From Alphaproteobacteria bacterium (GTDB lineage: Bacteria; Pseudomonadota; Alphaproteobacteria; Rhizobiales; Hyphomicrobiaceae), in contig JAJRZC010000093.1 of NCBI GenBank assembly GCA_024275435.1, positions 1-36,085 on the forward strand: a stretch of DNA of 36,085 nucleotides, read 5' to 3'. Each line of letters begins with the position of its first letter. Position 1 is the first letter of the stretch. The translations under genes and the position numbers were made by a program. This document shows positions 14,310 through 32,054 of the stretch, one piece after another. Below the pieces are notes generated by a model. The model was not told the DNA's origin and did not search any database. It saw only the letters and a program-made list of their open reading frames with translations.

Positions 14310-16265
14310 CTATAAATCCTTGTGGGTTTTGATCAGTTCATCAACGACACTCGGATCAGCAAGTGTCGATGTGTCACCCAGGCTGCCAAAGTCATCCTCT
14401 GCAATTTTACGCAAGATCCGCCGCATGATTTTGCCGGATCGTGTCTTGGGAAGTCCTGGAGCAAACTGGAGAACATCGGGAGAAGCAATGGGGCCGATTT
14501 CCTTGCGCACCCACTTGACCAGTTCTTTGCGAAGCTCATCGGAGGGTTCACTGCCTGCCATCAATGTTACATAAGCGTAGATGCCCTGCCCCTTGATGTC
14601 ATGAGGATATCCGACGACCGCTGCCTCGGAAACATCATGATGCGAAACAAGGGCCGATTCCACTTCTGCTGTACCCATGCGATGACCCGAGACATTGATC
14701 ACATCATCAACCCGTCCCGTGATCCAGTAGTATCCGTCCTCATCACGCCGGCAACCATCTCCCGTGAAGTACTTACCTGGATAGGTTGAAAAATAAGTCT
14801 GCTCAAAACGTTCATGATCGCCAAACAGTGTGCGCATCTGACCCGGCCAGCTATCCGCAATGACAAGATTACCCTCGCATGCCCCTTCAAGGACCTTACC
14901 CTCAGCATCGACAATCTGCGGGGCGACGCCAAAGAACGGTCGCGTTGCCGAACCTGGCTTTAGAGCAGTTGCACCCGGTAATGGAGCGATAAGAATGCCA
15001 CCTGTTTCAGTTTGCCACCATGTATCCACAATAGGGCAGCGGCTGTTACCCACAACGCGATAGTACCATTCCCAGACTTCCGGATTGATAGGTTCTCCCA
15101 CAGAGCCCAGAACGCGCAATGAACTGCGTGAGCTCTTTTTCACGGGTTCCTCACCAGCCGCCATGAGGGATCTGATTGCAGTGGGAGCGGTGTAGAATAT
15201 ATTGACCTTGTGCTTGTCGACAACTTCCCAAAAACGGCTGATGGTCGGGTACGTGGGAATTCCCTCAAACATCAAAGTCGTCGCGCCGTTAGCAAGAGGG
15301 CCATAGACGATATAACTGTGCCCGGTGACCCAACCCACATCCGCCGTGCACCAGTAGATGTCGCCATCATGATAATCAAAGATATACTTGTGAGTCATCG
15401 CGGCATAGACAAGATACCCACCCGTCGTGTGAACAACCCCTTTTGGAGCGCCGGTTGATCCCGAAGTGTAGAGAATAAATAAGGGATCTTCCGCATTCAT
15501 TGCCTCGGGCGGACACACATCGGAAACTTTCTCTTTTTCTTCATCATACCAGAAGTCACGACCAGTCTGCATATCGACATCCCCACCGGTACGGCGAACA
15601 ACAATCATGGATTTTACGCAACCAGCTTTGGTCGCGGCAATATCCGCGTTTGCCTTCAATGGAACCTTGCGTCCACCACGCAAGCCTTCATCAGCGGTAA
15701 CAACAACGGCCGATTGCGCACCCTCTATGCGCCCAGCAAGCGCTTCAGGAGAAAACCCACCAAAGATAATGGAGTGGACAGCACCTATACGCGTGCACGC
15801 GAGCATCGCAAAGGCAGCCTCGGGGATCATCGGGAGATAGAGTGTGACACGGTCCCCTCGTTTGACACCACGTGCCTTTAGCACATTGGCGAACCGGCAA
15901 ACCTCACGGTGGAGTTCTTTGTAGGAAATATGGCGCGAGTTTTCAGGATCATCGCCCTCAAATATAATTGCAGTCTGATCTCCGCGAGTTGCCAAATGAC
16001 GATCAATGCAGTTTGCCGAAACATTGAGTTCACCGTCTTCAAACCATTTAATCGAAATGGCATTTGGCGCATAGGATGTGTTCTTAACGATCGTGAACGG
16101 CTTGATCCAGTCAAGACTTTTAGCTTGTTCACCCCAGAATGCATTTGGGTCCCTCAAGCTGGCCTCATACATTGATTTGTACTTTGCGTCGTCCACATGG
16201 GCCCGGGAAGCAATCTCGGTTGGAACAGGGTAAATCTTTCCTTCGGTATCGTTTATATCAGTCAT
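14310..16265 (-). CDS. acs: Acetyl-CoA synthetase (AMP-forming)
   Basis: Makes acetyl-CoA from acetate, ATP and CoA, releasing AMP and PPi. At 651 residues it has the usual length. Motifs include the ATP loop [14 protein letters not shown], the WWQTETGG acyl-site segment, the hinge [22 protein letters not shown], and the C-terminal [15 protein letters not shown] with the lysine acetylated in this family. The ATG at 16265 matches family N termini; an ATG 69 bases earlier would overlap the end of ppa. It follows ppa by 65 bases, a sensible pair because PPi removal pulls the reaction forward. It probably feeds acetate from ethanol oxidation into central metabolism. Confidence 0.96.
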
Positions 16266-16330: not shown

Positions 16331-16864
16331 TCAATCCACGGCTTTGGCATTTGAAATAGCTTGAAGGATTAGGCTTTGAGCTTGCTCAGCATCGCCCCAG
16401 CGGGTGATCTTTGCCCACTTGCCAGCTTCCAGGTCTTTATAGTGTGAGAAAAAGTGCTCTACCTGAGACATAAGAATGTCCGGCAGGTCTGTGTAATTCG
16501 TTATCTTGTCGTAGTGCTTTGTGACGTGGCGGCAAGGAACAGCGACAACCTTCTCATCGCCTCCAGCCTCATCTTCCATAACGAGAACCCCGATGGGACG
16601 GCAGTTGATAATTGCCCCAGGCACAATGGCGCGCGTATTGCAAACCAGAACGTCGATTGGGTCCCCGTCATCAGACAATGTGTGGGGAACAAAACCGTAG
16701 TTTCCCGGATATCGCATCGGCGTATATAAGAAGCGATCCACAACAAGCGCTCCAGAAGCTTTATCCATTTCATATTTAATCGGCTCTCCACCTATCGGAA
16801 CTTCAATAATCACATTGATGTCGTGTGGTGGATCGTTTCCTATTTTTATGGAATCTATACGCAA
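16331..16864 (-). CDS. ppa: Inorganic pyrophosphatase (family I)
   Basis: Hydrolyses PPi to phosphate in the cytoplasm. [45 protein letters not shown] and the late [14 protein letters not shown] hold the metal- and PPi-binding acids of family I. I chose a TTG at 16864, with AGGAG upstream, because it gives 177 residues starting MRIDSIKIG, the usual family start; an in-frame ATG at 16900 would add 12 unrelated residues. It lies between the 39-residue gene and acs on the same strand, so Acs-produced PPi is likely one of its substrates. Confidence 0.95.
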
Positions 16865-16967
16865 TGGACCTAACTCCTGCTCGCTGTCCCGAACTCGCAT
16901 AGATTGAGCGAGAATGGGTTTATTTAAGAATCAATGACAACGCTGAATAGGATGTTCAAGAATCCCA

Positions 16968-17087
16968 TCAGGCCAAGGTAGCTTCAAGTGCGGAACGTTC
17001 TTCGTCAGTGCCAAGTCGTGCGCGTGCCTGAAATGAGAAGTTCCCAAGTAGGCTTGAACTGGAAACAGGTTTGGTGAAAAGTCCCAT
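16968..17087 (-). CDS. 39-residue small protein of unknown function
   Basis: A short open frame beginning MGLFTKPVSSSS and ending SALEATLA. GGAGG lies eight bases before the ATG, as good a ribosome site as any in the window. A sigma70-like promoter and a perfect inverted repeat lie upstream in the right orientation. It has no signal peptide, membrane segment or cysteine: a Ser/hydrophobic first half and a charged, helix-prone second half (RARLGTDEERSALEATLA). It does not resemble PqqA, which needs a Glu-x3-Tyr pair. ppa follows 103 bases on. I do not recognise it. An overlapping 29-codon frame starting at the earlier ATG has the ribosome site too close to be used. Confidence 0.55.
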   Translation of the reverse strand: MGLFTKPVSSSSLLGNFSFQARARLGTDEERSALEATLA

Positions 17088-17143
17088 AAAACATTCCTCC
17101 AGATGTGTGCCGCTTGTTTTGGCCTCTTGCGCTAAGAGAGACT

Positions 17144-17171
17144 TTTATAGTGCAGATTGTCATCACACCAA
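17144..17171 (-). promoter_or_regulatory. Putative sigma70-type promoter of the small gene-ppa-acs operon
   Basis: Reading the - strand: TTGGTG (17171-17166), a 16-base gap, then TATAAA (17149-17144). Transcription would start near 17137, about 50 bases before the ATG of the small gene. I looked for a sigma54 GG-N10-GC element here and found none. Confidence 0.5.
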
Positions 17172-17188
17172 ACGCGGTTAGATCTAAG

Positions 17189-17212
17189 AAGTGTCTCAAC
17201 ATTGAGACACTT
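17189..17212. promoter_or_regulatory. Perfect 24-bp inverted repeat, likely regulator binding site
   Basis: Arms AAGTGTCTCAA (17189-17199) and TTGAGACACTT (17202-17212) with a two-base spacer. The TGTCTC-N6-GAGACA core has the form of sites bound by AcoR-type Fis activators. Its centre is about 63 bases upstream of the predicted transcription start, a usual position for an activator working with sigma70. The Fis-type regulator gene ends 60 bases away, making it the obvious candidate partner. Confidence 0.65.
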
Positions 17213-17271: not shown

Positions 17272-18243
17272 TTAGGGCTTGTTTGAAAGCCCGAGGCGCT
17301 TCATGCGGCGGTAGAGGGTTGCCCGTCCAATTCCCAGTGCCTGTGCAGTGGCAGACATGTTTCCATCAGCTCTGGCCAATGCGCGTTGAATCTCACTGCG
17401 CTCAGCAGCGAGAAGATCAGCTTTTTGTTCCTGCCCACACAAGATATCCGCAGCAGGGCGAGGGGACCTGAAACTTTCATTGGTCAAACCAAAAGCAAGG
17501 CGTGCCGCCCGCGTTGCACCGATCACCAAGTCATCCCTATCCACCGCTAAGAGCATTTGGCCATTGTTACCAGGGCTGGAGCCCACAAGAACAATTCGAG
17601 AATCACGAAAGGTCTCATGAAAATAGTCGGTTTCAATCTTCTTGGCTGCATCGGCAATGACAGCTGAGACCAAGGATGCGACCCGTTCGGTGTGATCTGC
17701 TCGGCAAGAAGAAACGTCCAATGCGGCAACTAGCTTTCCTTCGTGATCGAATATTGGCGCATCCATACAACTCATATCGGTGTTGCGGCTATAAAAGTGC
17801 TCATCACGATGGATCGCTACTGGTCTTTGTTCGGCCAGACACGTCCCGATTCCGTTTGTGCCTTCCAACGCTTCGCTCCAAACCGCGCCCGTCCTTAAGC
17901 CCCATTGGGAAAAAATCTTGTCGTCAGAGACAGAGCTGCGCCGGTCTACGATCACACCATTCTTGTCGGTCAAAAGAACGCAACATCCCGTGTCACCAAC
18001 AGATTGAAAAAGCCGGTCGAGGGTCGGTTGGGCAACCGCAAGCAGAGGATCTATAGCTTCGCGTGCTTTACGCAGCTCAGCATAGCTAAGATATTGAGCT
18101 TGACGCTTGGTATCAGGTTCCAAACCATGGCTTAGAAGCGATCGTCTCCAGGACGCAGCAACCATGGAATGCGCTGCAGCGTCGCCTGATTGGGCGATCT
18201 CTAGAACCTGATCTGCGTGGCGTGGTGGATACGTTCGTCCCAT
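17272..18243 (-). CDS. GAF-domain Fis-family transcriptional regulator without AAA+ domain (AcoR-like)
   Basis: A 323-residue cytoplasmic regulator. Residues about 70-200 form a GAF sensor domain of the AcoR type (WSEALEGTNGIGTCLAEQRPVAIHRDEHF...SCMDAPIFDHEGKLVAALDVSS). A PAS-like linker covers about 205-265, and residues 282-320 are a Fis-type helix-turn-helix (IQRALARADGNMSATAQALGIGRATLYRRMKRLGL). The central AAA+ ATPase found in AcoR and other sigma54 activators is absent, with no GAFTGA or Walker motifs, so it cannot open sigma54 promoters and should act through sigma70. The palindrome at 17189-17212 and the acs operon promoter lie just past its stop. The ligand is unknown; an alcohol, aldehyde or acetate is a reasonable guess. 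Confidence 0.87.
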   Translation of the reverse strand: MGRTYPPRHADQVLEIAQSGDAAAHSMVAASWRRSLLSHGLEPDTKRQAQYLSYAELRKAREAIDPLLAVAQPTLDRLFQSVGDTGCCVLLTDKNGVIVDRRSSVSDDKIFSQWGLRTGAVWSEALEGTNGIGTCLAEQRPVAIHRDEHFYSRNTDMSCMDAPIFDHEGKLVAALDVSSCRADHTERVASLVSAVIADAAKKIETDYFHETFRDSRIVLVGSSPGNNGQMLLAVDRDDLVIGATRAARLAFGLTNESFRSPRPAADILCGQEQKADLLAAERSEIQRALARADGNMSATAQALGIGRATLYRRMKRLGLSNKP

Positions 18244-18459: not shown

Positions 18460-19191
18460 ATGGGCAATCTTCGAACCGCAATTCTGTTGTGTCTATCCGC
18501 TGGTCTGATCAGCGCGGCGAGTTTGTCCGCCATCGCAGAGCCGGCCAAGACCTCACTATGTAGGCAGGACGCAATGATCGTTTTCGATGCCTCCGGTTCT
18601 ATGTCGGGTATGCTTCGCACCGGTGTGCGCGAGTCGCGAATAACACGCGTCCGCCAAGCTCTGCAGGAAGTCCTGCCGCAAATCGAAATTTACAGAAATC
18701 TGGGTCTTATCGTCTATGGTTCAGGACAGGCAGATTCATGCTCCAGCATCGACATTCGCTTTACGCCTGCCCCAAATTCTGCAGCGAGAATTATCGCCGA
18801 AGTTGATGCCCTCGTTCCTTCTGGCGGTACGCCACTAACAAGGGCGGTACAACTAGCTGCAGACGTATTAAAATTTCGCGAGCGTGAGGGTACCATCGTA
18901 TTGTTCACCGATGGTGAGGAAACTTGCGGGGGTGCCACTTGTTCCTTGGCACGGCGTCTACGCTTAGAATCTCGCGGGTTGAAGGTCCACGTCATAGATT
19001 ACACGATCCGAGATCCATTTGGTCAACGCGGACATTTTAAGTCCCATTGCCTAGTGAATGAGACGGGCGGTATCTACGTGCCTGTGGAAACGAAAGAAGA
19101 GCTTGTTGCGGCATTTCGCAAAACACTTGGTTGCTCGTTGGTGACGCTTTTGAGCCCAGATGGTACAACTTCGGATAGTGTCAAGCGTTAG
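18460..19191 (+). CDS. Secreted von Willebrand factor A (VWA) domain protein of the quinoprotein locus
   Basis: Exported protein of 243 residues with a signal peptide (1-26, ending AIAEP). The VWA domain has a complete metal-ion adhesion site: DASGSMS (43-49), the Thr in GGTPLT (about 124) and FTDGEE (D151). It should therefore bind a divalent metal and a protein partner. Several cysteines (near 34, 94, 156, 161, 197 and 225) suggest disulfides, in keeping with a periplasmic place. VWA proteins accompany PQQ dehydrogenase clusters, where they may help assemble the enzyme, but this role is not proven. It stands alone, divergent from the regulator and convergent with the metallohydrolase. Confidence 0.85.
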   Translation: MGNLRTAILLCLSAGLISAASLSAIAEPAKTSLCRQDAMIVFDASGSMSGMLRTGVRESRITRVRQALQEVLPQIEIYRNLGLIVYGSGQADSCSSIDIRFTPAPNSAARIIAEVDALVPSGGTPLTRAVQLAADVLKFREREGTIVLFTDGEETCGGATCSLARRLRLESRGLKVHVIDYTIRDPFGQRGHFKSHCLVNETGGIYVPVETKEELVAAFRKTLGCSLVTLLSPDGTTSDSVKR

Positions 19192-19260: not shown

Positions 19261-20250
19261 CTAAGGTGAATTAGATTGGTCGACGCGCGGCAACTTACTT
19301 GCTTCAAGCTTAGGATAAAGGTGCATGACTGAGCGCTCGAACTCGTAACGCGCCAAAGCAATCTTTGCAGTCCACGCCGGCAGCGGTTCTTGAAATGCCT
19401 CGGTCATGGTAAGGCCTCTTTCACATGCGTCACCGATGGTTTGTTCAATGGTATTCAACCAATCAACAGTCTGGGTAATCCCCCGGGTACCGCTTTCAGC
19501 AGGACCATGCCCCCCTACCATGCGAGTAGACTTAATGTTTTCTAATCGTTTCAAGCTCTTTCGCCATATGCCCAAGTCTGCATGGGGTGTTGTTGGCGCC
19601 CGATCCAAAAACACCAGGTCACCACAAAACAAAATGCCTGATCGTTCATCGAAAATCGCTAGATCTGTATCTGTGTGTCCCCCAAGAGTGAGATAACGGA
19701 GCCGGCGTTCACCAATATCTTCATGGTCAGTATCAATTATTTTATTTGGTAAAATTAGTTCAGTACCGCGCATCCAATCGCCTGCCAGTTGGTACATCGC
19801 TGTTGCAAATTCTTCGCCACTTCGTTTAAGACCGTCAACAACACCCTGGGGGGCGGCAATTAGTTTTGGCTCAAATGCCTGGTTACCAAATACATGATCA
19901 GGATGAAAGTGGGTGATCAAAACACGAGCAATAGGTTTTCCGGTAAGTTGCTCGACAATTGACTTCAAAGCGGTGCCAAATCGCAATGAGGGACCAGTAT
20001 CGATAACGATCACCCCATCACGGGTGTCGAGGATCGAAATATTAGCAATGGCACCACCATTTTTCATGGTGATGGGCTCGTTGGCTCCAAAAAGAACCCA
20101 AACTCCATCAGCAATCTTTTTCGGATCCAGTTTGTACCGCAACGGTGCCGCTACTGCATCAGGTATTGGCCAAAGGGGCAACGAAGCTGCTGCACACCCA
20201 AGCACCGAAACGGCCTCACGGCGTGTGAAGAACTGGCGTGTATTGCTCAC
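19261..20250 (-). CDS. Quinoprotein relay system zinc metallohydrolase (MBL fold)
   Basis: Metallo-beta-lactamase fold protein, exported. The N terminus has FTRREAVSVLG followed by a hydrophobic stretch and AVAAP, a twin-arginine-like signal, which would mean export as a folded metalloprotein. Metal ligands are seen in HFHPDH (114-119), GGHTDTD (H192), CGDLVF (D211) and GGHGP (H248), so two zinc ions are likely. It resembles SoxH-related proteins linked to PQQ dehydrogenases. It may process an adduct on the SoxYZ-like carrier encoded 18 bases upstream in the same operon; this is inference, since no substrate is known. Confidence 0.9.
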   Translation of the reverse strand: MSNTRQFFTRREAVSVLGCAAASLPLWPIPDAVAAPLRYKLDPKKIADGVWVLFGANEPITMKNGGAIANISILDTRDGVIVIDTGPSLRFGTALKSIVEQLTGKPIARVLITHFHPDHVFGNQAFEPKLIAAPQGVVDGLKRSGEEFATAMYQLAGDWMRGTELILPNKIIDTDHEDIGERRLRYLTLGGHTDTDLAIFDERSGILFCGDLVFLDRAPTTPHADLGIWRKSLKRLENIKSTRMVGGHGPAESGTRGITQTVDWLNTIEQTIGDACERGLTMTEAFQEPLPAWTAKIALARYEFERSVMHLYPKLEASKLPRVDQSNSP

Positions 20251-20268
20251 GGTTCAGCCTTTAATAGA

Positions 20269-21096
20269 TTAAGGAGTTAAGGTCGAATTTTGTAGTATCG
20301 CCCGGCTTTGTTTCCAGCGAGCCGGAATTTTAGAGGGGTAAATATTACCGCCAATATCGCGTCCCTCAATAAGCACAGCATCATCACTCAATGGTAATTT
20401 AACATGCAATGTCATCGTCGGGTCTTCGCTGACGGGTTCACGTATATTGACTAACGCCAGCAAGACTCCTGAAGAGCTGCGAAGTTGAAGCGTCTCAATA
20501 TAAAAGGCGGGAATATTGTCAGGTGTTAAGCCGGTGTCCATAGGGTGACGAACGGTAAGTCGAACTCTTGTCGACCCGTCTAGTTGTGGCCAAAGCCGAC
20601 CGCGGGTATGCCCGAGAGTCGTGGACCAGTCTTCTTTTTGGCGCGCCATGGCAGGTGAAGAGCAACCGCCGCCTGTCGCATCGAGATAGATTCCACCAAT
20701 ATGCCAAACACCATCGGCCGTTAGTACAGCTGCACGAACCGGCGTCGCTTGCTCTACCTTCATTCGAAACGAAATAAATGGTTTGGCCTTAAGCGGGGTC
20801 AAAGTTAAAACATGTTGAATGGGATTGAAGTCAGCGAATACGACAATCTTTCTAACGTTAGGCAAATCCCGTGCGTCTACACTCACAGGTACCTGGGCCT
20901 GGTTTTCGAGGACACTGGGAACGATCACTTTGACGCGCTCATCAAAGACATAGGCGCTATCGCCAATGAACTGATCTTTCATTTCCTCCCAGTTGACGGA
21001 ATTGAGCGGATCCTGAGAAGCAAAACTTGATGATGGAAGCACAATCCAAACCAGCAATGTCGCTACCATCCACACCCGACTAATGCTTTTCATCAA
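20269..21096 (-). CDS. Quinoprotein dehydrogenase-associated SoxYZ-like fused carrier
   Basis: Periplasmic protein of 275 residues: signal peptide (1-26, ending SFAS), a SoxY-like domain (about 30-140), then a SoxZ-like domain (about 170-260, with VRLTVRHPMDTGL). In sulfur-oxidising bacteria SoxY carries sulfur on a Cys in a C-terminal GGCGG tail. Here the matching Cys is C145 in ATGGGCSSP, in the middle of the chain between the two domains, so SoxY and SoxZ are fused and the carrier arm is an internal loop. That Cys is probably the attachment point for an unknown cargo. First gene of a two-gene operon with the metallohydrolase; the promoter region has the 14-bp motif at 21240. Confidence 0.88.
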   Translation of the reverse strand: MMKSISRVWMVATLLVWIVLPSSSFASQDPLNSVNWEEMKDQFIGDSAYVFDERVKVIVPSVLENQAQVPVSVDARDLPNVRKIVVFADFNPIQHVLTLTPLKAKPFISFRMKVEQATPVRAAVLTADGVWHIGGIYLDATGGGCSSPAMARQKEDWSTTLGHTRGRLWPQLDGSTRVRLTVRHPMDTGLTPDNIPAFYIETLQLRSSSGVLLALVNIREPVSEDPTMTLHVKLPLSDDAVLIEGRDIGGNIYPSKIPARWKQSRAILQNSTLTP

Positions 21097-21239
21097 TCTT
21101 GTATCCTTAACCTTAGTCAGCCCAGTTTCAGATCAAATGATAATACACCTGCCTGAGACCCGCAACTTTACCTAGTGTTGGACCATTTCAAATTACATTT
21201 CTGTGATCGTAATTGCAGGTATCATCATAGGCAGATGGG

Positions 21240-21253
21240 ACTTTAGTACTAAA
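21240..21253. promoter_or_regulatory. Candidate quinoprotein-regulon operator, copy 1
   Basis: ACTTTAGTACTAAA, part of a perfect 14-bp palindrome CTTTAGTACTAAAG at 21241-21254. It lies in the 288-base divergent region, 131 bases before the CX3CW gene and about 143-145 bases before the SoxYZ-like gene. It matches the shared motif ACTWTAGTRCNAMA. Confidence 0.5.
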
Positions 21254-21384
21254 GGATGGATTGCTGTTTGCCGCAATTGTCATCTTAAATACTATGACGC
21301 GAACAAACATCACGTCACTTCGGGTAAATTGATTGGTCTAGGTGGGCGGGGCTCACTGGAAGTGGTCGGCAGGTAGACAAAGTT

Positions 21385-22002
21385 ATGAGGACCAATCTCC
21401 ATCTCATCAACCATATGATTGTCACGCTTGCGCTGACAATGGCGCTTTTCTTACCCAGAAGTATTTCCACCATCGCTGGTGAGGATTCTTATTTCGATCC
21501 TCTCACCGGCTATCGGATCAATCATTATCGTGCCCCTGTGCCTGAAAAGGCTCCTGGAGGTAAGCGCGTTCGTGTTGACGACGTAGAACAGATTATCGCT
21601 GATAAGTCCGTCATCCTGATCGACGTCATGGCTTCAACCGGACCCGGCCCAGACTTGAAAACGGGGGCGTGGCGCATGGTCAAGATACGAGAAAATATCC
21701 CTGGTTCAGTTTGGTTGCCAAATGTTGGCAAAGGCAAGCTAAGTGATCAAATTCTGAATTATTTTAAAGACAACCTGAAACGTCTCACCAAGGGTAACAA
21801 ATCACACCCAATCGTCATCTACTGTCAGGCCGACTGCTGGATGTCTTGGAATGCTGTAAAACGTGCCTCAGAACTTGGATATACGAATATATATTGGTAC
21901 CCAGAGGGAACCGATGGATGGTTGGATTGGGACGGGCGGCTCGTTGTGGCAAAACCAGTTCCACTACCACCAACTATGAACAGCTCTGTGAGAGCACCAT
22001 AA
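21385..22002 (+). CDS. PQQ-catabolism-associated CX3CW rhodanese-like protein
   Basis: Exported 205-residue protein with a signal peptide (about 1-31) and a rhodanese-like domain. The active loop reads YCQADCWMSWNA, with C147, C151 and W152. The following NIYWYPEGTDGW segment is also typical of this quinoprotein-associated family (named CXXCW in databases, although three residues separate the cysteines here). The two cysteines could act in sulfur transfer or as a redox pair, perhaps on the SoxYZ-like carrier that is divergently transcribed. That link is inference; the family's biochemistry is not established. Confidence 0.88.
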   Translation: MRTNLHLINHMIVTLALTMALFLPRSISTIAGEDSYFDPLTGYRINHYRAPVPEKAPGGKRVRVDDVEQIIADKSVILIDVMASTGPGPDLKTGAWRMVKIRENIPGSVWLPNVGKGKLSDQILNYFKDNLKRLTKGNKSHPIVIYCQADCWMSWNAVKRASELGYTNIYWYPEGTDGWLDWDGRLVVAKPVPLPPTMNSSVRAP

Positions 22003-22099
22003 CCAGTTCAATAAATGAAGGCGTTTAGTCAATGATAAACGAACCGCTTTCAACGAACTCTGATTTTATCCGTGACTATCAAGAGAGCGTTGCCCTGAT

Positions 22100-22645
22100 C
22101 TACCTTATCTCGAGGCGCGGATACAAATGCTGGCTGGCTTGCCCTTTTGTAAGGTCCGCAATAGGACGTGCGTACTCAGTTTCAGGCGGCACAGCCAACA
22201 CATTCATGTCAGTTTCCATCAACACACCATGAATTCGGCCATCTTTACCTTTGGTAAGGTCGTAATAGATCCCATTCCATGCGTTAATTCCGTACTCCCC
22301 CGGCTTCTTGTGTAAAAATAAAAGTTCATACTCAAGATCAGTCATGTCATCAGCAGTGACCATCTTGTGGGTCTTATAGGGATAAACAAGATGGCAAAGA
22401 GACTGCGTTTTGCCATCGATACATTGGAATGGGCGCATCGATAGAAACTTATTGACGAACTGGCTTTCATCAAGCTTCACATCAATCTTTGAACCGTTAT
22501 CCAGCTTGGTGAATGTCACGCGGCCAATTACAACTTCTTGGTTGTCAGCACCAATTAACACAATAGATTTGTCACCTTCAAAGGCAAAAGCTGGGACAAA
22601 TGTCACCAGTAGCGCGATCAAGGATAGAGTTATGCATTTCGGCAT
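22100..22645 (-). CDS. Secreted protein of unknown function in the quinoprotein locus
   Basis: A 181-residue exported protein. The signal peptide covers about 1-22 (LIALLVTFVPAFAF). The mature part has a beta-rich look, two cysteines in PFQCIDGKTQSLCHLVYPY (C75, C84) that may form a disulfide, and the segment PGEYGINAWNGIYYDL. I do not recognise a named domain. It lies between the CX3CW gene (convergent) and the beta-propeller gene (same strand, 127 bases upstream), so it is most likely a periplasmic accessory of alcohol oxidation. Confidence 0.75.
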   Translation of the reverse strand: MPKCITLSLIALLVTFVPAFAFEGDKSIVLIGADNQEVVIGRVTFTKLDNGSKIDVKLDESQFVNKFLSMRPFQCIDGKTQSLCHLVYPYKTHKMVTADDMTDLEYELLFLHKKPGEYGINAWNGIYYDLTKGKDGRIHGVLMETDMNVLAVPPETEYARPIADLTKGQASQHLYPRLEIR

Positions 22646-22772
22646 GGCGGGAGAACCTTTAATATTTACCTTCTCAACGAAGAAACGAAATTTTTGGATT
22701 TAACGACAAAACAGCAACAACGAACCGCGCATCAAACGGCGTTAAATCCAATCATTAAAGGGCTAAGTTCGT

Positions 22773-23744
22773 TCATTGTGTAGGTCGTATCGCAACACCC
22801 CAAGGGTAGCGTCCAACCTTGATTGCTTTCACCGCCTTAAACTTCTTGATATCGATAACCGTAACGTCATTCGAAACGCCGTTGGTTGTGAACAACAAAT
22901 CCTCTTCTGGCGTCAAAGCAAGGTGCCACACTCGTTGGCCGGTAAGTATGTAGCGTTTAACTTCATAGGTTTTGGCATCAACAACAGCAACGCGATTGGC
23001 AGGTCCTAATGCAACAAATGCTAACTTATCATCATGGGTTAGTTTCATGCCCACAGGCTGTATGCGATCTTCTGTGATGCCTTGAATGGGAAACTGAATA
23101 ACTTTTTCCACCTTGCGTGTGGCCACATCAATGATCGAAACCGTGCCGCCAATTTCGGATGATACCCAGAGTTTTTTTCCATCACGAGTAAACTCAGCGT
23201 GACGCGGGCGTTGGTCCACGAGAATATTGGCGACAACTTCAAACGTCTTGGTGTCAATGAGATGAGCCATATTGGTCGTCTCGGAAGTTGTTACCGCCAG
23301 ACTATTATCTGGAGAAACTGCCATACCTTCAGGCTCAACACCAACATCGACCTGCTTAACGACGCTTCGGGTTTGAAGATCAACGATTGTTGTTACCGCA
23401 TTGTCTTCATTGGCGATGTAAAGCCGTTTCCCGTCGGGAGAAGCTGCAAACTGCTCTGGATCCTCGCCTGAGGGCAGGTCATAAAGATGCTTATCATTGG
23501 ACGTGTCATAGACTTGAACGGCATCGCTATCGCTAGCGCAAACAAAAAACTTATTGAAATCTCTTGAAAACGTTATGCCGCGAGGGCGCATGCCAACGTC
23601 AAAAATACGAACCACTTCAAGTGACTTTGTATCAATAACATGAATCTTATTGTCTTTCTCACTGGAGACATAGACTTCATGAGCAGCGACCGGAGGCGAA
23701 ACCATAGTAACGATGATGACAGCCGCGAACTTAATCAAGTGCAT
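22773..23744 (-). CDS. YVTN-family beta-propeller protein of the quinoprotein locus
   Basis: Periplasmic beta-propeller of 323 residues. After a signal peptide (1-21, ending VAA) there are about seven blades of roughly 42 residues, each with a variant of the pattern V-x-D-x-x-x-x-x-V-(x)n-G-x-x-P-x-G-(x)n-S-P-D-x-x-x-(L/F)-x-V (e.g. VGVEPEGMAVSPDNSLAVTTS). It matches the family found next to PQQ dehydrogenases (TIGR03866-like). It has no PQQ-site cysteine pair and is likely a scaffold or binding protein rather than an enzyme. It is divergent from the cytochrome gene. Confidence 0.9.
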   Translation of the reverse strand: MHLIKFAAVIIVTMVSPPVAAHEVYVSSEKDNKIHVIDTKSLEVVRIFDVGMRPRGITFSRDFNKFFVCASDSDAVQVYDTSNDKHLYDLPSGEDPEQFAASPDGKRLYIANEDNAVTTIVDLQTRSVVKQVDVGVEPEGMAVSPDNSLAVTTSETTNMAHLIDTKTFEVVANILVDQRPRHAEFTRDGKKLWVSSEIGGTVSIIDVATRKVEKVIQFPIQGITEDRIQPVGMKLTHDDKLAFVALGPANRVAVVDAKTYEVKRYILTGQRVWHLALTPEEDLLFTTNGVSNDVTVIDIKKFKAVKAIKVGRYPWGVAIRPTQ

Positions 23745-24070
23745 TCAAAGGCCCCTTTTTTGCGGAAGCTCAGCGCGTTACCTGCAAGCTGAAAAGGACA
23801 AAGAGCCACTTGCGACGCAACACGAACAACGCCGCAGTTCCGCAACGTTTAGGCGTAGGGAGTGCAACCAGTAAGGTGATATTCTAGTCCATCGTAAAAC
23901 TTCACCAAAGGGCTACTATAGTACAACATAGTGCGCACAACCGGGGCATCAGAAGATGCAGGCGGAAATTATGCGGCTTTTTATGTTCGACTTTTGGCTA
24001 ATGTCCACATGGGTGTTTTGCAAGCTAATTTGAGCTGTGCAATCGGAACAATAAATCCTGGGGACTATGA
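23745..24070. other. Divergent regulatory region, beta-propeller / cytochrome
   Basis: About 326 bases between the leftward beta-propeller gene and the rightward cytochrome gene. It contains copy 2 of the 14-bp motif at 23915-23928. GGGGA before the cytochrome ATG is its ribosome site. No RNA gene or further repeat was seen. Confidence 0.5.
23915..23928. promoter_or_regulatory. Candidate quinoprotein-regulon operator, copy 2
   Basis: ACTATAGTACAACA, matching ACTWTAGTRCNAMA and overlapping a TACTATAGTA palindrome. Exactly 142 bases separate its last base from the cytochrome start codon, the same distance as for copy 3 and the dehydrogenase gene. Confidence 0.5.
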
Positions 24071-24502
24071 ATGAAAGCTTTGCGAATTCTACGATACTTA
24101 GCCGTATTCGGTCTTTTCTTCACCATCGGAGTCGCTAACGTATCGGCCCATGGTGATGTCCAGCCCCAGCCAATAGATACTAAGGGCTTAAAGTCGCTCG
24201 GCGATGAGTGGCTATCTGAAAATCCTTACAGAGGTAATAAACGTGCTATCGAGATCGGAGCGTCCGGTTACAATCAAAATTGCGCGCGTTGCCATGGCCT
24301 ACAAGTTATCTCTGGTGGGCTTTCTCCCGATCTTCGCTATCTGGAATTAGGTAAAGAAGGAGACGAGTGGTTTATCGAAAGAATCCGCAAAGGTGCAACA
24401 ATCAATGGCATAACAAGAATGCCGGCCTTTGAAGGGCTAATGAGCCAAGAGGCCATGTGGGCTATCCGCACGTATATCGAAACCCAGCATGAAGAGGATT
24501 GA
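24071..24502 (+). CDS. pedF: Cytochrome c550, PedF-like electron acceptor of the quinoprotein dehydrogenase
   Basis: Small periplasmic class I cytochrome c of 143 residues. A signal peptide (1-26, ending VSAHG) precedes one haem site, NCARCHG (CxxCH at 71-75); M117 in TRMPAF is the probable sixth ligand. The C-terminal helix QEAMWAIRTYIETQ is typical. It should take electrons from the PQQ dehydrogenase encoded downstream and pass them to the oxidase chain. GGGGA lies at a proper distance before the ATG. Its stop overlaps the TTG start of the next gene. The cytochrome class is certain; the PedF assignment rests on similarity and context. Confidence 0.88.
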   Translation: MKALRILRYLAVFGLFFTIGVANVSAHGDVQPQPIDTKGLKSLGDEWLSENPYRGNKRAIEIGASGYNQNCARCHGLQVISGGLSPDLRYLELGKEGDEWFIERIRKGATINGITRMPAFEGLMSQEAMWAIRTYIETQHEED

Positions 24503-25380
24503 GCAAAGCTCTTATGACCACGCTCTTCACTTCTAAAACATCAGCAATCTTTGGTTCCATACTCGCAGTGATATTCTTTGCTGCATCCCACACCGCTTTT
24601 GCTCGCCCACTGGACGATGTGATCGAAAGTGGGGTTCTTCGCGTTATTGTTTATTACGATAACAAGCCCTTCTCTTGGGAAGAAGACGGCAAAGCGAAGG
24701 GCATAGATGCAGACCTGGGCCGCGCCATTGCGGCAAAATTAAAGGTCACTGCTGACATCATAGTGCGCACTGCAGGTGAAGAAGTCGATGACGACCTGCG
24801 TTCAAACATTTGGCAAGGACCACGCACCGGCGGACACAAAGGCGATGTGATGATGCATGTCCCGATGGATAAAGAACTCATCGCTCGCAACAACTTGGTT
24901 GCAATTTCAAATGCCTATTATCATGAACAGGTCATTCTTGTGGTCAATACGGACATGGTGGCAGACAATGAAGGGCTTTCCGCCTTCAAAAAACATGATG
25001 TAGCGGTCCAGTTCGCCACTTCTGCACACTATTTTCTCGCATTTATTGACGAAGGCGCATACGCCAATAATGTGAGCCCGTTTATGAAGTTTGAAGACGC
25101 TGCCGCGCGTTTTAACGCCAAGGAAAGTGCAGGCCTCTTAGGGCGGCGCGCTCAAATCGAGCCGCTGGTTAAAAATACTAAATTTGGTCTACGCTATATT
25201 GAACCGGAATTTCCTTCAACATTGCGGGGACGGTGGAATATTGGAACCGCCGTCAATCAAGATAGCCGAGATCTCGGCTATGCCATCGGCGCGGCGATAG
25301 AAGAAATAAAAGCTTCAGGCGAGCTTAAACAAATCTTTGAAAAATACGGCGTCTCCCTTATTGCTCCCCTCACACGTTGA
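24499..25380 (+). CDS. Quinoprotein-associated substrate-binding protein (MoxJ-like)
   Basis: A 293-residue periplasmic protein of the type II solute-binding fold. The signal peptide runs to about residue 36 (HTAFARP), followed by VIESGVLRVIVYYDNKPFSWEEDGKAKGIDADLGRAIAAKLKV, the classic family-3 binding-protein start. Members beside PQQ dehydrogenases (TIGR03871, related to MoxJ/XoxJ) have no ABC partner genes and are thought to help mature or activate the dehydrogenase; none are present here. The TTG start overlaps the cytochrome stop (TTGA), implying coupling; an ATG at 24514 is the alternative. It lies 371 bases before the dehydrogenase gene. Confidence 0.88.
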   Translation: MSKALMTTLFTSKTSAIFGSILAVIFFAASHTAFARPLDDVIESGVLRVIVYYDNKPFSWEEDGKAKGIDADLGRAIAAKLKVTADIIVRTAGEEVDDDLRSNIWQGPRTGGHKGDVMMHVPMDKELIARNNLVAISNAYYHEQVILVVNTDMVADNEGLSAFKKHDVAVQFATSAHYFLAFIDEGAYANNVSPFMKFEDAAARFNAKESAGLLGRRAQIEPLVKNTKFGLRYIEPEFPSTLRGRWNIGTAVNQDSRDLGYAIGAAIEEIKASGELKQIFEKYGVSLIAPLTR

Positions 25381-25751
25381 ATTAACCCGATGTCCTTTTC
25401 AGGTCTGCACCGAGTTACAGCAGTCAACTTATGTTTCATTACAAACGTGATTTAAAAAATTAAATCTGTTTCTTTATCAATTCTGTTTTGATGCACTTTT
25501 CAAAAGCAACACCCGCTGTCCTTGCAGGCACTACGACAGCTCAAAAATATACAGCTCAATTTAAGACGCAATGACCAGCATCAAAGTGGTCTTATACTTT
25601 AGTGCCAAACCCCTGTGGTTATAGACTAATTGGTAATAAGGCACCGCGTTGCACTGGGTTATGTTCGGCTCGGTCCTGGGTTCATGCAGGCCGAAAACAA
25701 GGCTTGCCGAACTCAGAAGCAGCCTGAAACTATATATGTAAGGGGAAGACC
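25381..25751. other. Promoter and leader region of the alcohol dehydrogenase gene
   Basis: About 370 bases. Copy 3 of the 14-bp motif is at 25596-25609. Downstream, GTTCGGC (25663-25669) can pair either with GCCGAA (25690-25695, extended by CCTG/CAGG inside) or with GCCGAAC (25706-25712), so the leader RNA may fold in two exclusive ways. AGGGGAAG just before the ATG is the ribosome site. Confidence 0.45.
25596..25609. promoter_or_regulatory. Candidate quinoprotein-regulon operator, copy 3
   Basis: ACTTTAGTGCCAAA, matching ACTWTAGTRCNAMA. Exactly 142 bases separate it from the ATG of the dehydrogenase, the same as copy 2 from the cytochrome start. Confidence 0.5.
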
Positions 25752-27500
25752 ATGAAGTTGAGGAATTTGTTTGTTACTGCAAGTGCAGTAACACTTTCAG
25801 TTGCTTTGGCGGCACCGGTAGCCGCCGATGTTAGCATTGATGATATTGTAAATGACGCAAAAACGACTGGTGACGTTGTCTCCTATGGTCTTGGTCCTAA
25901 AGGTCAGCGTTACAGCCCGCTAAAGATGATAAATAAGGACAATGTTGGTTCAGTGGTTCCTGTTTGGACCATGTCTCTTGGCGGTGAAAAAATGCGCGGC
26001 CAGGAGACACAACCGTTGGTCAAGGACGGGGTGATGTACATCACTGGCTCATACAGCCGGATGTGGGCAATCGACACCAAGACAGGACGCGAAATCTGGC
26101 TATACGACGCACGCCTTCCAGAGGGAATTCTACCTTGCTGCGACGTTGTTAACCGTGGCGCGGCTATATTCGGCGATAAGGTTTATTTCGGAACTCTAGA
26201 TGCGCAACTTGTGGCCCTCAATGCCAAGACAGGAAAGGTTGTCTGGAAGAAGAAGATCGACGACTTCAAGGCTGGTTTCTCCTATACAGCAGCCCCACTG
26301 ATTGTACCTTCAAAAGCACACGGCCCGCTATTGGTCACCGGCGTATCAGGCGGTGAGTTCGGCATTGTTGGTCGTGTTGAAGCACGCAATGTTGAAACAG
26401 GTGAGCTCATTTGGACACGCCCGACGATCGAAGGCCATGTTGGCATGCTCAAGGGCAAGAAGTCGTCAATGACCGGTAAAAAGGGTGAAACCTGGAAGGG
26501 CGACCTTTATAAAACCGGTGGCGGTGCCACATGGAACGGCGGCACCTATGACCCAGATACCAAGCTGATATTCTTTGGTGTTGGCAACCCAGCCCCATGG
26601 AATAGCCATCTTCGCCCGGGTGATAACAAGTGGGGATGCGCGCGCATCGCTATTGATCCGGAAACCGGTGAGATCAAGTGGGGTTATCAAACAACACCAC
26701 ACGATGGCTGGGACTATGACGGCGTAAACGAAGTGGTTTCCTTCGACCTTAACGGTACGAAAGCAGCAGCTACCGCAGATCGCAACGGTTTCTTCTATGT
26801 TCTCAATCGGGAAACCGGGGCGTTCATAAATGCTTATCCGTTCGTTGAAAATATTTCGTGGGCCAAGGGTATCGGTTCTGACGGGCGTCCAATTTACAAC
26901 AAGGAAAATTATCCGGGCGATCCAACTAAGTCCAAGGATGGCAAAAAAGGCAGTTCAGTATTTGCAATCCCAAGCTTCCTGGGCGGTAAGAACTGGATGC
27001 CGATGGCCTACTCACCAGACACCAAGATGTTCTACGTTCCTTCCAACGAGTGGGGCATGGACCTTTGGAATGAGCCGGTCACCTACAAGAAAGGTGCTGC
27101 TTATCTAGGTGCCGGTTTTACCATTAAGCCGATATTTGATGACCACATCGGAGCCCTAAAGGCGATAGATCCGGCCACTGGCAAGATCGCTTGGTCGATC
27201 AAGAATAAAGCCCCACTTTGGGGTGGAGTGTTGACGACCGCTGGCGGCCTTGTTTGGTACGGAACACCAGAAGGTTATTTCAAGGCTGTTGATGCGTCTA
27301 CCGGTAAGGAACTTTATTCCTTCAACACTGGCTCAGGCATCGTTGGTTCGCCAATTACATGGGAGCAAGATGGTGAGCAGTACGTTTCCGTTGTTTCCGG
27401 TTGGGGTGGCGCTGTCCCACTTTGGGGCGGAGATGTTGCCAAGACCGTTGCCCATCTGAACCAAGGTGGCATGCTCTGGACGTTCAAGCTACCGAAGTAA
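25752..27500 (+). CDS. exaF: PQQ-dependent alcohol dehydrogenase, lanthanide-type, ethanol-oxidising (ExaF/PedH-like)
   Basis: Periplasmic quinoprotein of 582 residues, an eight-blade propeller after a signal peptide (1-25, ending PVAAD). The adjacent cysteines C129-C130 in [10 protein letters not shown] form the ring disulfide over PQQ. Metal and catalytic residues are E202 (SGGEFG), N279 (GVGNPAPWN) and D321 in [10 protein letters not shown]. The residue two after D321 is also Asp (D323); this marks lanthanide-dependent enzymes, whereas calcium enzymes have Ala or Ser there. The [24 protein letters not shown] and [17 protein letters not shown] segments resemble ethanol rather than methanol dehydrogenases. 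It should oxidise ethanol and other primary alcohols and aldehydes, giving electrons to the c550. A strong terminator follows. The substrate range is inferred. Confidence 0.93.
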
Positions 27501-30908: not shown

Positions 30909-31640
30909 TTATTGGACACTCCGTTCAGAATTCACAATGACCGGCATCCGAAACTTCCACTTGTCCCAAAGCTCACCTTTCTTAATCAACTCTGTCATAA
31001 AGTGAGCGACGTTTGAGCGCGTGCAAGGGCGGCCAGATAGGATGCCCGTGGAGGGGGACTCACTGATCTCATACGGTGAGTTCTCATCGTTGGTTAACGT
31101 ATCAGGTCGCACACAGCACCATTGGATGTGCTTGTTCTCACGTCCTATATTCTTATGTAAGTGTTCAACTGCCGTCTCATTATCTTTGTGTGGTGGCAAG
31201 ATGTGACGCAAGAGAGAAAGAAGCTGTCGTTCAAACCAAGTCCTATTTTCTCTAAGATCAGGATTCCTGACACCAACAGTGTTCATCAGAATGAATTTGG
31301 TGGGCTCGGAAGGGTTATTCTTTTCGATTGCTTCACACAAACGCTGGGTTGCGTCTGTGCATAGCTTTTTCGGCTCACCAAACATTCCGTTGAAATCCAA
31401 GACATGCCCCAAACATGAGACAACTGCATTGCACCCCTTTATGTGTTTAGCCATCTCCTCATCGGTCAAGTCGAGAACGCTCTCCTCTACTACCGTCAAG
31501 TTTGGGTTTCCTACAACCTCGGCGGAGAGTTTGTGTGCTGAGCGGACAATCACTCGAACCTTGTAGTTTCTGCTGAGCAACTGTTCTACCAATGGCCGTC
31601 CTGTCATGCCCGTGGCTCCAACGACGAATATGGTCTTCAA
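30909..31640 (-). CDS. NAD(P)-binding atypical SDR family protein
   Basis: A 243-residue Rossmann-fold protein. It begins KTIFVVGATGMTGRPLVEQLL with the GxxGxxG nucleotide loop of atypical SDRs and continues VVSCLGHVLDFNG. The usual YxxxK catalytic pair is not evident, so it may be a sensor or NAD(P)-binding protein rather than an enzyme. I start it at the TTG at 31640 because AAGGAG lies seven bases upstream and the Rossmann strand follows directly; an in-frame ATG at 31679 would add 13 residues. It abuts the FIST gene and is first in that operon, a hint that it belongs to the same signalling or alcohol function. Confidence 0.82.
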   Translation of the reverse strand: MKTIFVVGATGMTGRPLVEQLLSRNYKVRVIVRSAHKLSAEVVGNPNLTVVEESVLDLTDEEMAKHIKGCNAVVSCLGHVLDFNGMFGEPKKLCTDATQRLCEAIEKNNPSEPTKFILMNTVGVRNPDLRENRTWFERQLLSLLRHILPPHKDNETAVEHLHKNIGRENKHIQWCCVRPDTLTNDENSPYEISESPSTGILSGRPCTRSNVAHFMTELIKKGELWDKWKFRMPVIVNSERSVQ

Positions 31641-32054
31641 AAGAGTTCTCCTTAAACCACACGTATCGATAGCCAACAATCGACCTGTTTTGTGAAGCTT
31701 CAGGTAAATATCGTCATATCAAAGAAGAGTATGCAACATCGAATAAATCAAAGCCGCTCCTTGGCCCATCTCACAGCAGGAGATAGGAGCTGAGTTTAAT
31801 TAGCAGTAACCGCTAAAGCCGTGTGTCTGTGTTGAAATGGCGGTTGCCACACCTAAAAGCATCGCGTGACACGCTGGCCATTGCTGCTGCGGTTTTAATC
31901 TGGGCTGGGCGCTGACAATGCAAAAACAATGTAAGAACATTGTCCGCACACCAACATAATTCCAAAAGTCGCAAATACGACTTTTTGAAAAGTCGCACGT
32001 TCACTTCTGTTCCAATGGGAAAAGCAGCAACTCATTGAATTATTAGATAAAAAC
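31641..32054. other. Intergenic region between SDR operon and tRNA-Thr
   Basis: About 410 bases with no convincing gene. Two short overlapping frames have no ribosome site and low-complexity protein sequence. Two hairpins lie below the tRNA on the - strand: AAAAGTCG/CGACTTTT (31964-31985), and ACAATGT/ACATTGT (31926-31943) followed on the - strand by T5. They may end the tRNA transcript. The SDR operon promoter must be in the left half. Confidence 0.45.
31921..31943 (-). terminator. Possible terminator of the tRNA-Thr transcript
   Basis: On the - strand a seven-base stem ACAATGT-TCTT-ACATTGT is followed by TTTTT. The stem is AT-rich and so rather weak. A second hairpin lies between it and the tRNA. 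Confidence 0.4.

Follow-up and report, generated by a model that had tools for sequence, protein, structure and literature searches.

Regulators of a build similar to the one described here, without a working AAA+ domain and acting on sigma70 promoters, are already known. PpsR/CrtJ is such a case, and RegA/PrrA, TyrR and DhaR (the last with its AAA+ domain kept) also act on sigma70 promoters. DhaR is under the control of DhaK and DhaL and reportedly activates dhaKLM from a sigma70 promoter. The HTH of PpsR/CrtJ is of the Fis type. AcoR is an AAA+ activator of sigma54 transcription, involved in acetoin catabolism. The PpsR/CrtJ proteins of purple bacteria combine sensor domains with an HTH, lack AAA+ and have TGT-N12-ACA palindromes as sites (PMC4452267).

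We analysed a stretch of 36,085 nucleotides from an alphaproteobacterial genome (the window), in which a perfect palindrome lies between the gene of an AcoR-like protein and the genes ppa and acs. It is probable, in our view, that the neighbouring AcoR-derived regulator has its operator in this palindrome, and that it would sense its effector through a GAF domain and activate a sigma70 promoter in class I fashion, that of ppa-acs here and usually that of an aldehyde dehydrogenase gene. The protein is homologous to AcoR in its GAF, PAS-like and Fis-HTH regions (about 28-40% identity, N-terminal part), and several AAA+ AcoR members lie near TGTC-N10-GACA dyads. Unlike AcoR, it has no AAA+ domain, GAFTGA motif or sigma54 element, its predicted target is aldehyde oxidation or acs, and a genome usually has a single site. 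E. coli DhaR is its best fold match and its best, sub-cut-off, NCBIfam hit, but DhaR retains the AAA+ domain that the regulator lacks. PpsR/CrtJ was compared by build and site form: the core TGTCTC-N6-GAGACA fits TGT-N12-ACA, whereas PpsR/CrtJ carries several PAS domains in place of the GAF, uses paired sites and mainly represses photosynthesis genes. Neither the multi-PAS architecture nor photosynthesis targets were found for the present regulator, which has a GAF domain and aldehyde oxidation genes as putative targets.

What we did not find described in the literature searched (most subscription journals lie outside it) is an AAA-less AcoR-type protein, or a clade of them that has an operator and promoter layout of its own. 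The clade would offer a natural case in which the loss of a domain made a sigma70 regulator out of a sigma54 activator. Operator, promoter spacing and target can be read in dozens of genomes, which provides a concrete set of constructs for asking how a change of sigma class works. The analysis also names a likely regulator for the aldehyde (probably acetaldehyde) dehydrogenase, a step of ethanol oxidation, in many alphaproteobacteria; in the same literature, again with most subscription journals outside, we found no regulator of such kind described for this step.

A regulator clade without AAA+

The regulator gene was delimited by domain matches, alignment and a fold model:

17272-18243, minus strand: regulator of 323 aa, AcoR-derived, without AAA+

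The protein comprises N-terminal helices and a GAF domain (residues 67-198), a PAS-like segment (about 215-270) and a Fis-type HTH_8 (281-317). It matches the GAF and HTH_8 families and no AAA family. Aligned with AAA+ AcoR homologues, it is collinear through the GAF and the PAS-like segment (LLAVDRDDLVIGATRAAR), and the Fis HTH comes immediately after; the AAA+ domain between them is absent as one block. Among solved structures, the AlphaFold model (mean pLDDT 91.3) comes closest to the N-terminal region of E. coli DhaR (4lrz/4lrx/4lry), and the DhaR NCBIfam hit scores 97.5 of 551 bits, far under its cut-off. Measured against AcoR-type enhancer-binding proteins, the regulator has the GAF sensor and the C-terminal Fis HTH, both alignable with AcoR, and a TGTC-type dyad operator comparable to the TGTC-N10-GACA near several AAA+ members; the AAA+ domain with Walker A and GAFTGA is absent from it and from its short homologues. 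The first-pass annotation had read the protein as AcoR-type with GAF and Fis domains and no ATPase, and domain scan, alignment and tree bear this out.

We collected 57 AAA-less proteins: that of the window, 53 from whole-genome searches and three from named loci (Microvirga and two Maricaulis). The 56 homologues are 44-59% identical to the window protein. We speak of Alphaproteobacteria for this clade because of the named loci. None of the 57 comes from another class; matches elsewhere in the phylum cover the N-terminal part of the query alone, nearly all in frames roomy enough for an AAA+ domain. In a tree of 317 columns, the 57 proteins, picked by similarity to the window protein, fall on one side of a branch and 21 AAA+ AcoR homologues on the other (support 0.96-0.99). 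Most of the AAA+ relatives retain GAFTGA or GSFTGA, and in other genomes TGTC-N10-GACA dyads accompany sigma54-like elements at several AAA+ AcoR genes.

Regulator and operator are a widespread and old module, conserved clade-wide, and the proposal of an AcoR-like protein "rebuilt" in this genome has to be corrected. We lean towards a history in which a single loss of the AAA+ domain switched the sigma class of a whole AcoR-type clade, with sensor, HTH and operator retained, and in which the pair here took over an acetate-activation operon in place of the aldehyde dehydrogenase.

The palindrome and the genes behind it

The operator was located by repeat, shuffle and genome scans and by comparison with orthologues:

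17189-17212, no strand: operator AAGTGTCTCAA-CA-TTGAGACACTT, with core TGTCTC-N6-GAGACA at 17192-17209

The 24 bp form the perfect palindrome AAGTGTCTCAACATTGAGACACTT, 60 nt past the regulator stop, with 11-bp arms and a two-base spacer as had been described. No other inverted repeat in the window combines 11-bp arms with a spacer of 0-6, and 100 dinucleotide shuffles gave no match to it at up to 3 mismatches. The genome scan for further copies that had been suggested as a check was run on 3.56 Mb and gave none above background: the core with its inner AA/TT has one exact copy, and at up to 3 mismatches there are 12 genome matches against 8 in the control, about control level. The sole 2-mismatch match (contig 222) was rejected as a further site, as it falls within an HNH-endonuclease-like coding sequence. 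A 3-mismatch relative of the core, TGCCCCAAACATGAGACA at 31405-31422, lies within an NAD-binding ORF (30909-31679) and is probably due to chance.

Across the clade, 47 of 57 loci have an exact TGTCNC-N6-GNGACA between -20 and +220 from the regulator stop, against 0.36 expected from its density elsewhere; ten loci have no exact site near the regulator. Control windows shifted by -1200, -700, +500 and +900 contain 4, 0, 0 and 0 exact sites, and the four at -1200 precede the regulator gene and may be genuine additional sites. The operator consensus is (C)TGTCKCA-N4-TGMGACA(G), and its conserved part is confined to the symmetric TGTCKCA/TGMGACA letters, loop and flanks being variable. The strict pattern is present in 29 of 38 genomes that carry the regulator, once in 26 and twice in three (control counts near zero). 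Since 26 of the 29 matching genomes have one strict site, the regulator seems to be devoted to a single target. To judge from these sequences, the adjacent regulator almost certainly binds the palindrome, whose reading as an AcoR-type operator gains support from the 47 loci and from the TGTC-N10-GACA dyads at several AAA+ AcoR genes.

An exact operator copy also occurs upstream of the regulator gene in four loci (L022, L028, L048, L068). This suggests autoregulation or, in L028, which is the same locus as L093, the divergent dehydrogenase gene as target.

Residue 311 of the recognition helix varies together with the fifth base of the site: Tyr goes with TGTCTC in 21 of 25 cases and His with TGTCGC in 18 of 19 (39 of 44 overall). 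The correlation reflects 3-4 changes on the tree, and a tree-aware test has three independent pairs, at which significance is unreachable. We therefore rejected this covariation as proof of direct binding, the correlation not being independent of ancestry.

In most loci, the gene after the site encodes an ExaC-type aldehyde dehydrogenase. In two loci the regulator gene lies apart from the dehydrogenase gene (2.4 kb in L109, 6 kb in L110) and the site stands before the dehydrogenase. In L132 the site is with the dehydrogenase (80% identical) and the regulator is on another contig, and in L093 the two genes are divergent with the site in between. As the site travels with the dehydrogenase when the regulator is elsewhere, it is to be assigned to the target promoter rather than to the regulator gene's end. 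From reading of the translations, an aldehyde:ferredoxin-oxidoreductase-like pair takes the dehydrogenase's place in L015, and a molybdenum-hydroxylase-like gene nearby does so in L044.

Promoter layout and mode of action

In 29 of 50 loci, TGAC, mostly within CTGACA, forms a -35 hexamer whose first base lies 29-30 nt beyond the site; the best of 500 shuffles reached 5. A -10 hexamer follows after 17 nt. Among these 29 loci its second base is A in 23 and its sixth is T in 25; the other 21 loci have no TGAC at the fixed place. The conserved promoter of the relatives is thus sigma70-type with a weak -10, and by arithmetic from it the operator centre lies near -73.5. Such an operator, upstream of the -35 at a fixed and helically constrained spacing in 29 of 50 loci, is what characterises class I sigma70 activation. 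No sigma54-like element was found within 200 nt downstream of the site in any of the 50 loci, in agreement with what had been noted for the window.

The window offers two candidate promoters, read from the letters:

17144-17171, minus strand: candidate promoter A, -35 TTGGTG (17171-17166), N16, -10 TATAAA (17149-17144)
17135-17163, minus strand: candidate promoter B, -35 ATGACA (17163-17158), N17, -10 CTCTCT (17140-17135)

Candidate A is the promoter proposed in the first-pass annotation, with the palindrome at about -63. It is present as placed, and its use would put the operator centre near -63.5. However, it stands 9 nt nearer to the operator than the relatives' conserved promoter, about one helical turn, it goes unlisted by a consensus promoter scan, and its good -10 is paired with a poor -35 (TTGGTG has three of the six bases of TTGACA). 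Candidate B has ATGACA where the relatives carry CTGACA, and a poor -10, CTCTCT.

Three other explanations of the palindrome were weighed. The regulator could bind it and yet repress the operon by looping or exclusion until released by an effector, an option already raised in the annotation. PpsR/CrtJ, also AAA-less, of similar build and with sites of the form TGT-N12-ACA, acts mainly by repression (PMC4452267), and the second operator copy upstream of the regulator gene in L022, L048 and L068 would fit autorepression there. A repressor site, however, would usually overlap the promoter, whereas this one lies 29-30 nt upstream of the -35 at constant spacing and is combined with a weak -10, the geometry of class I activation. 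Because the site stands well upstream of the -35 at a conserved spacing, we regard repression as unlikely.

It is far less probable that the operator remains in use for sigma54 transcription, with a different, AAA+-bearing protein acting on it. AAA+ AcoR genes are present in some of the same genomes, and L018 has a full sigma54-like TGGCAC-N5-TTGC, 42 nt upstream of the operator, which may be a chance match or a relic of an ancestral promoter. Against this, none of the 50 loci has such an element downstream, where sigma70-type -35 and -10 hexamers keep a fixed spacing. A terminator of the regulator gene, or an RNA hairpin, is the least probable of all. The palindrome lies shortly past the regulator stop and could fold as RNA, but no U-run follows it and a terminator scan lists nothing there. 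Moreover, the symmetric letters alone are conserved while loop and flanks vary, and the site keeps to the dehydrogenase promoter where the regulator is elsewhere or divergent. We rejected the terminator given the missing U-run, the negative scan and this attachment to the dehydrogenase promoter.

Class I activation from a sigma70 promoter by an AcoR derivative, as had been suggested, is therefore the reading supported by the fixed -35 spacing in 29 of 50 loci and the absence of sigma54 elements in all 50. According to this model, the GAF domain would respond to a two-carbon oxidation intermediate, with acetaldehyde or a related compound as putative effector, and the regulator would then bind the palindrome as a dimer. 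Bound in a class I position, near -73.5 in the relatives or near -63.5 in the window if TATAAA is the -10, it would recruit sigma70 RNA polymerase. In the window the regulator would thereby switch on ppa-acs and so the activation of acetate coming from the nearby PQQ-alcohol dehydrogenase pathway.

Putative target genes and surroundings in the window

Regulator, palindrome, a short ORF, ppa and acs follow each other in this order, as the first reading had it:

16971-17087, minus strand: 39-aa ORF (MGLFTKPVSSSSLLGNFSFQARARLGTDEERSALEATLA), doubtful as a gene, GGAGG at 17100-17096
16331-16900, minus strand: ppa, inorganic pyrophosphatase, putative target (gene/domain matches)
14310-16265, minus strand: acs, acetate--CoA ligase, putative target (ORF extends to 16334 by the first TTG; likely start ATG 16265)

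The order of the proposed target operon stands, but its small gene has no conservation behind it: among 80 related genomes the 39-aa ORF has no homologue except itself, and we rejected it as a conserved gene.

The window genome is alone among the loci seen in having the acs operon immediately behind the site. Since no other locus has ppa-acs directly there, control of acs in the window is suggested by position. In one Maricaulis (L013), two genes separate the site from acs. The search of the window genome gave no ExaC-type aldehyde dehydrogenase (best match 33% identity, in an assembly 94.5% complete). Because acs stands third behind the site in Maricaulis, the arrangement in the window may be a remnant left after loss of the dehydrogenase. 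Judged from gene order, the usual target of the module is aldehyde oxidation, and the window is unusual in its putative target ppa-acs.

On the other side of the regulator, a gene for a VWA-domain protein (18460-19191) stands between it and a PQQ-dependent alcohol dehydrogenase cluster (19261-27500), about 8 kb away. The cluster encodes the PQQ-alcohol dehydrogenase, cytochrome c, a SoxYZ-like carrier, a quinoprotein relay metallohydrolase and PQQ-associated beta-propeller and CXXCW proteins. It is followed by genes for a LuxR-type response regulator, a hybrid kinase and a FIST protein.
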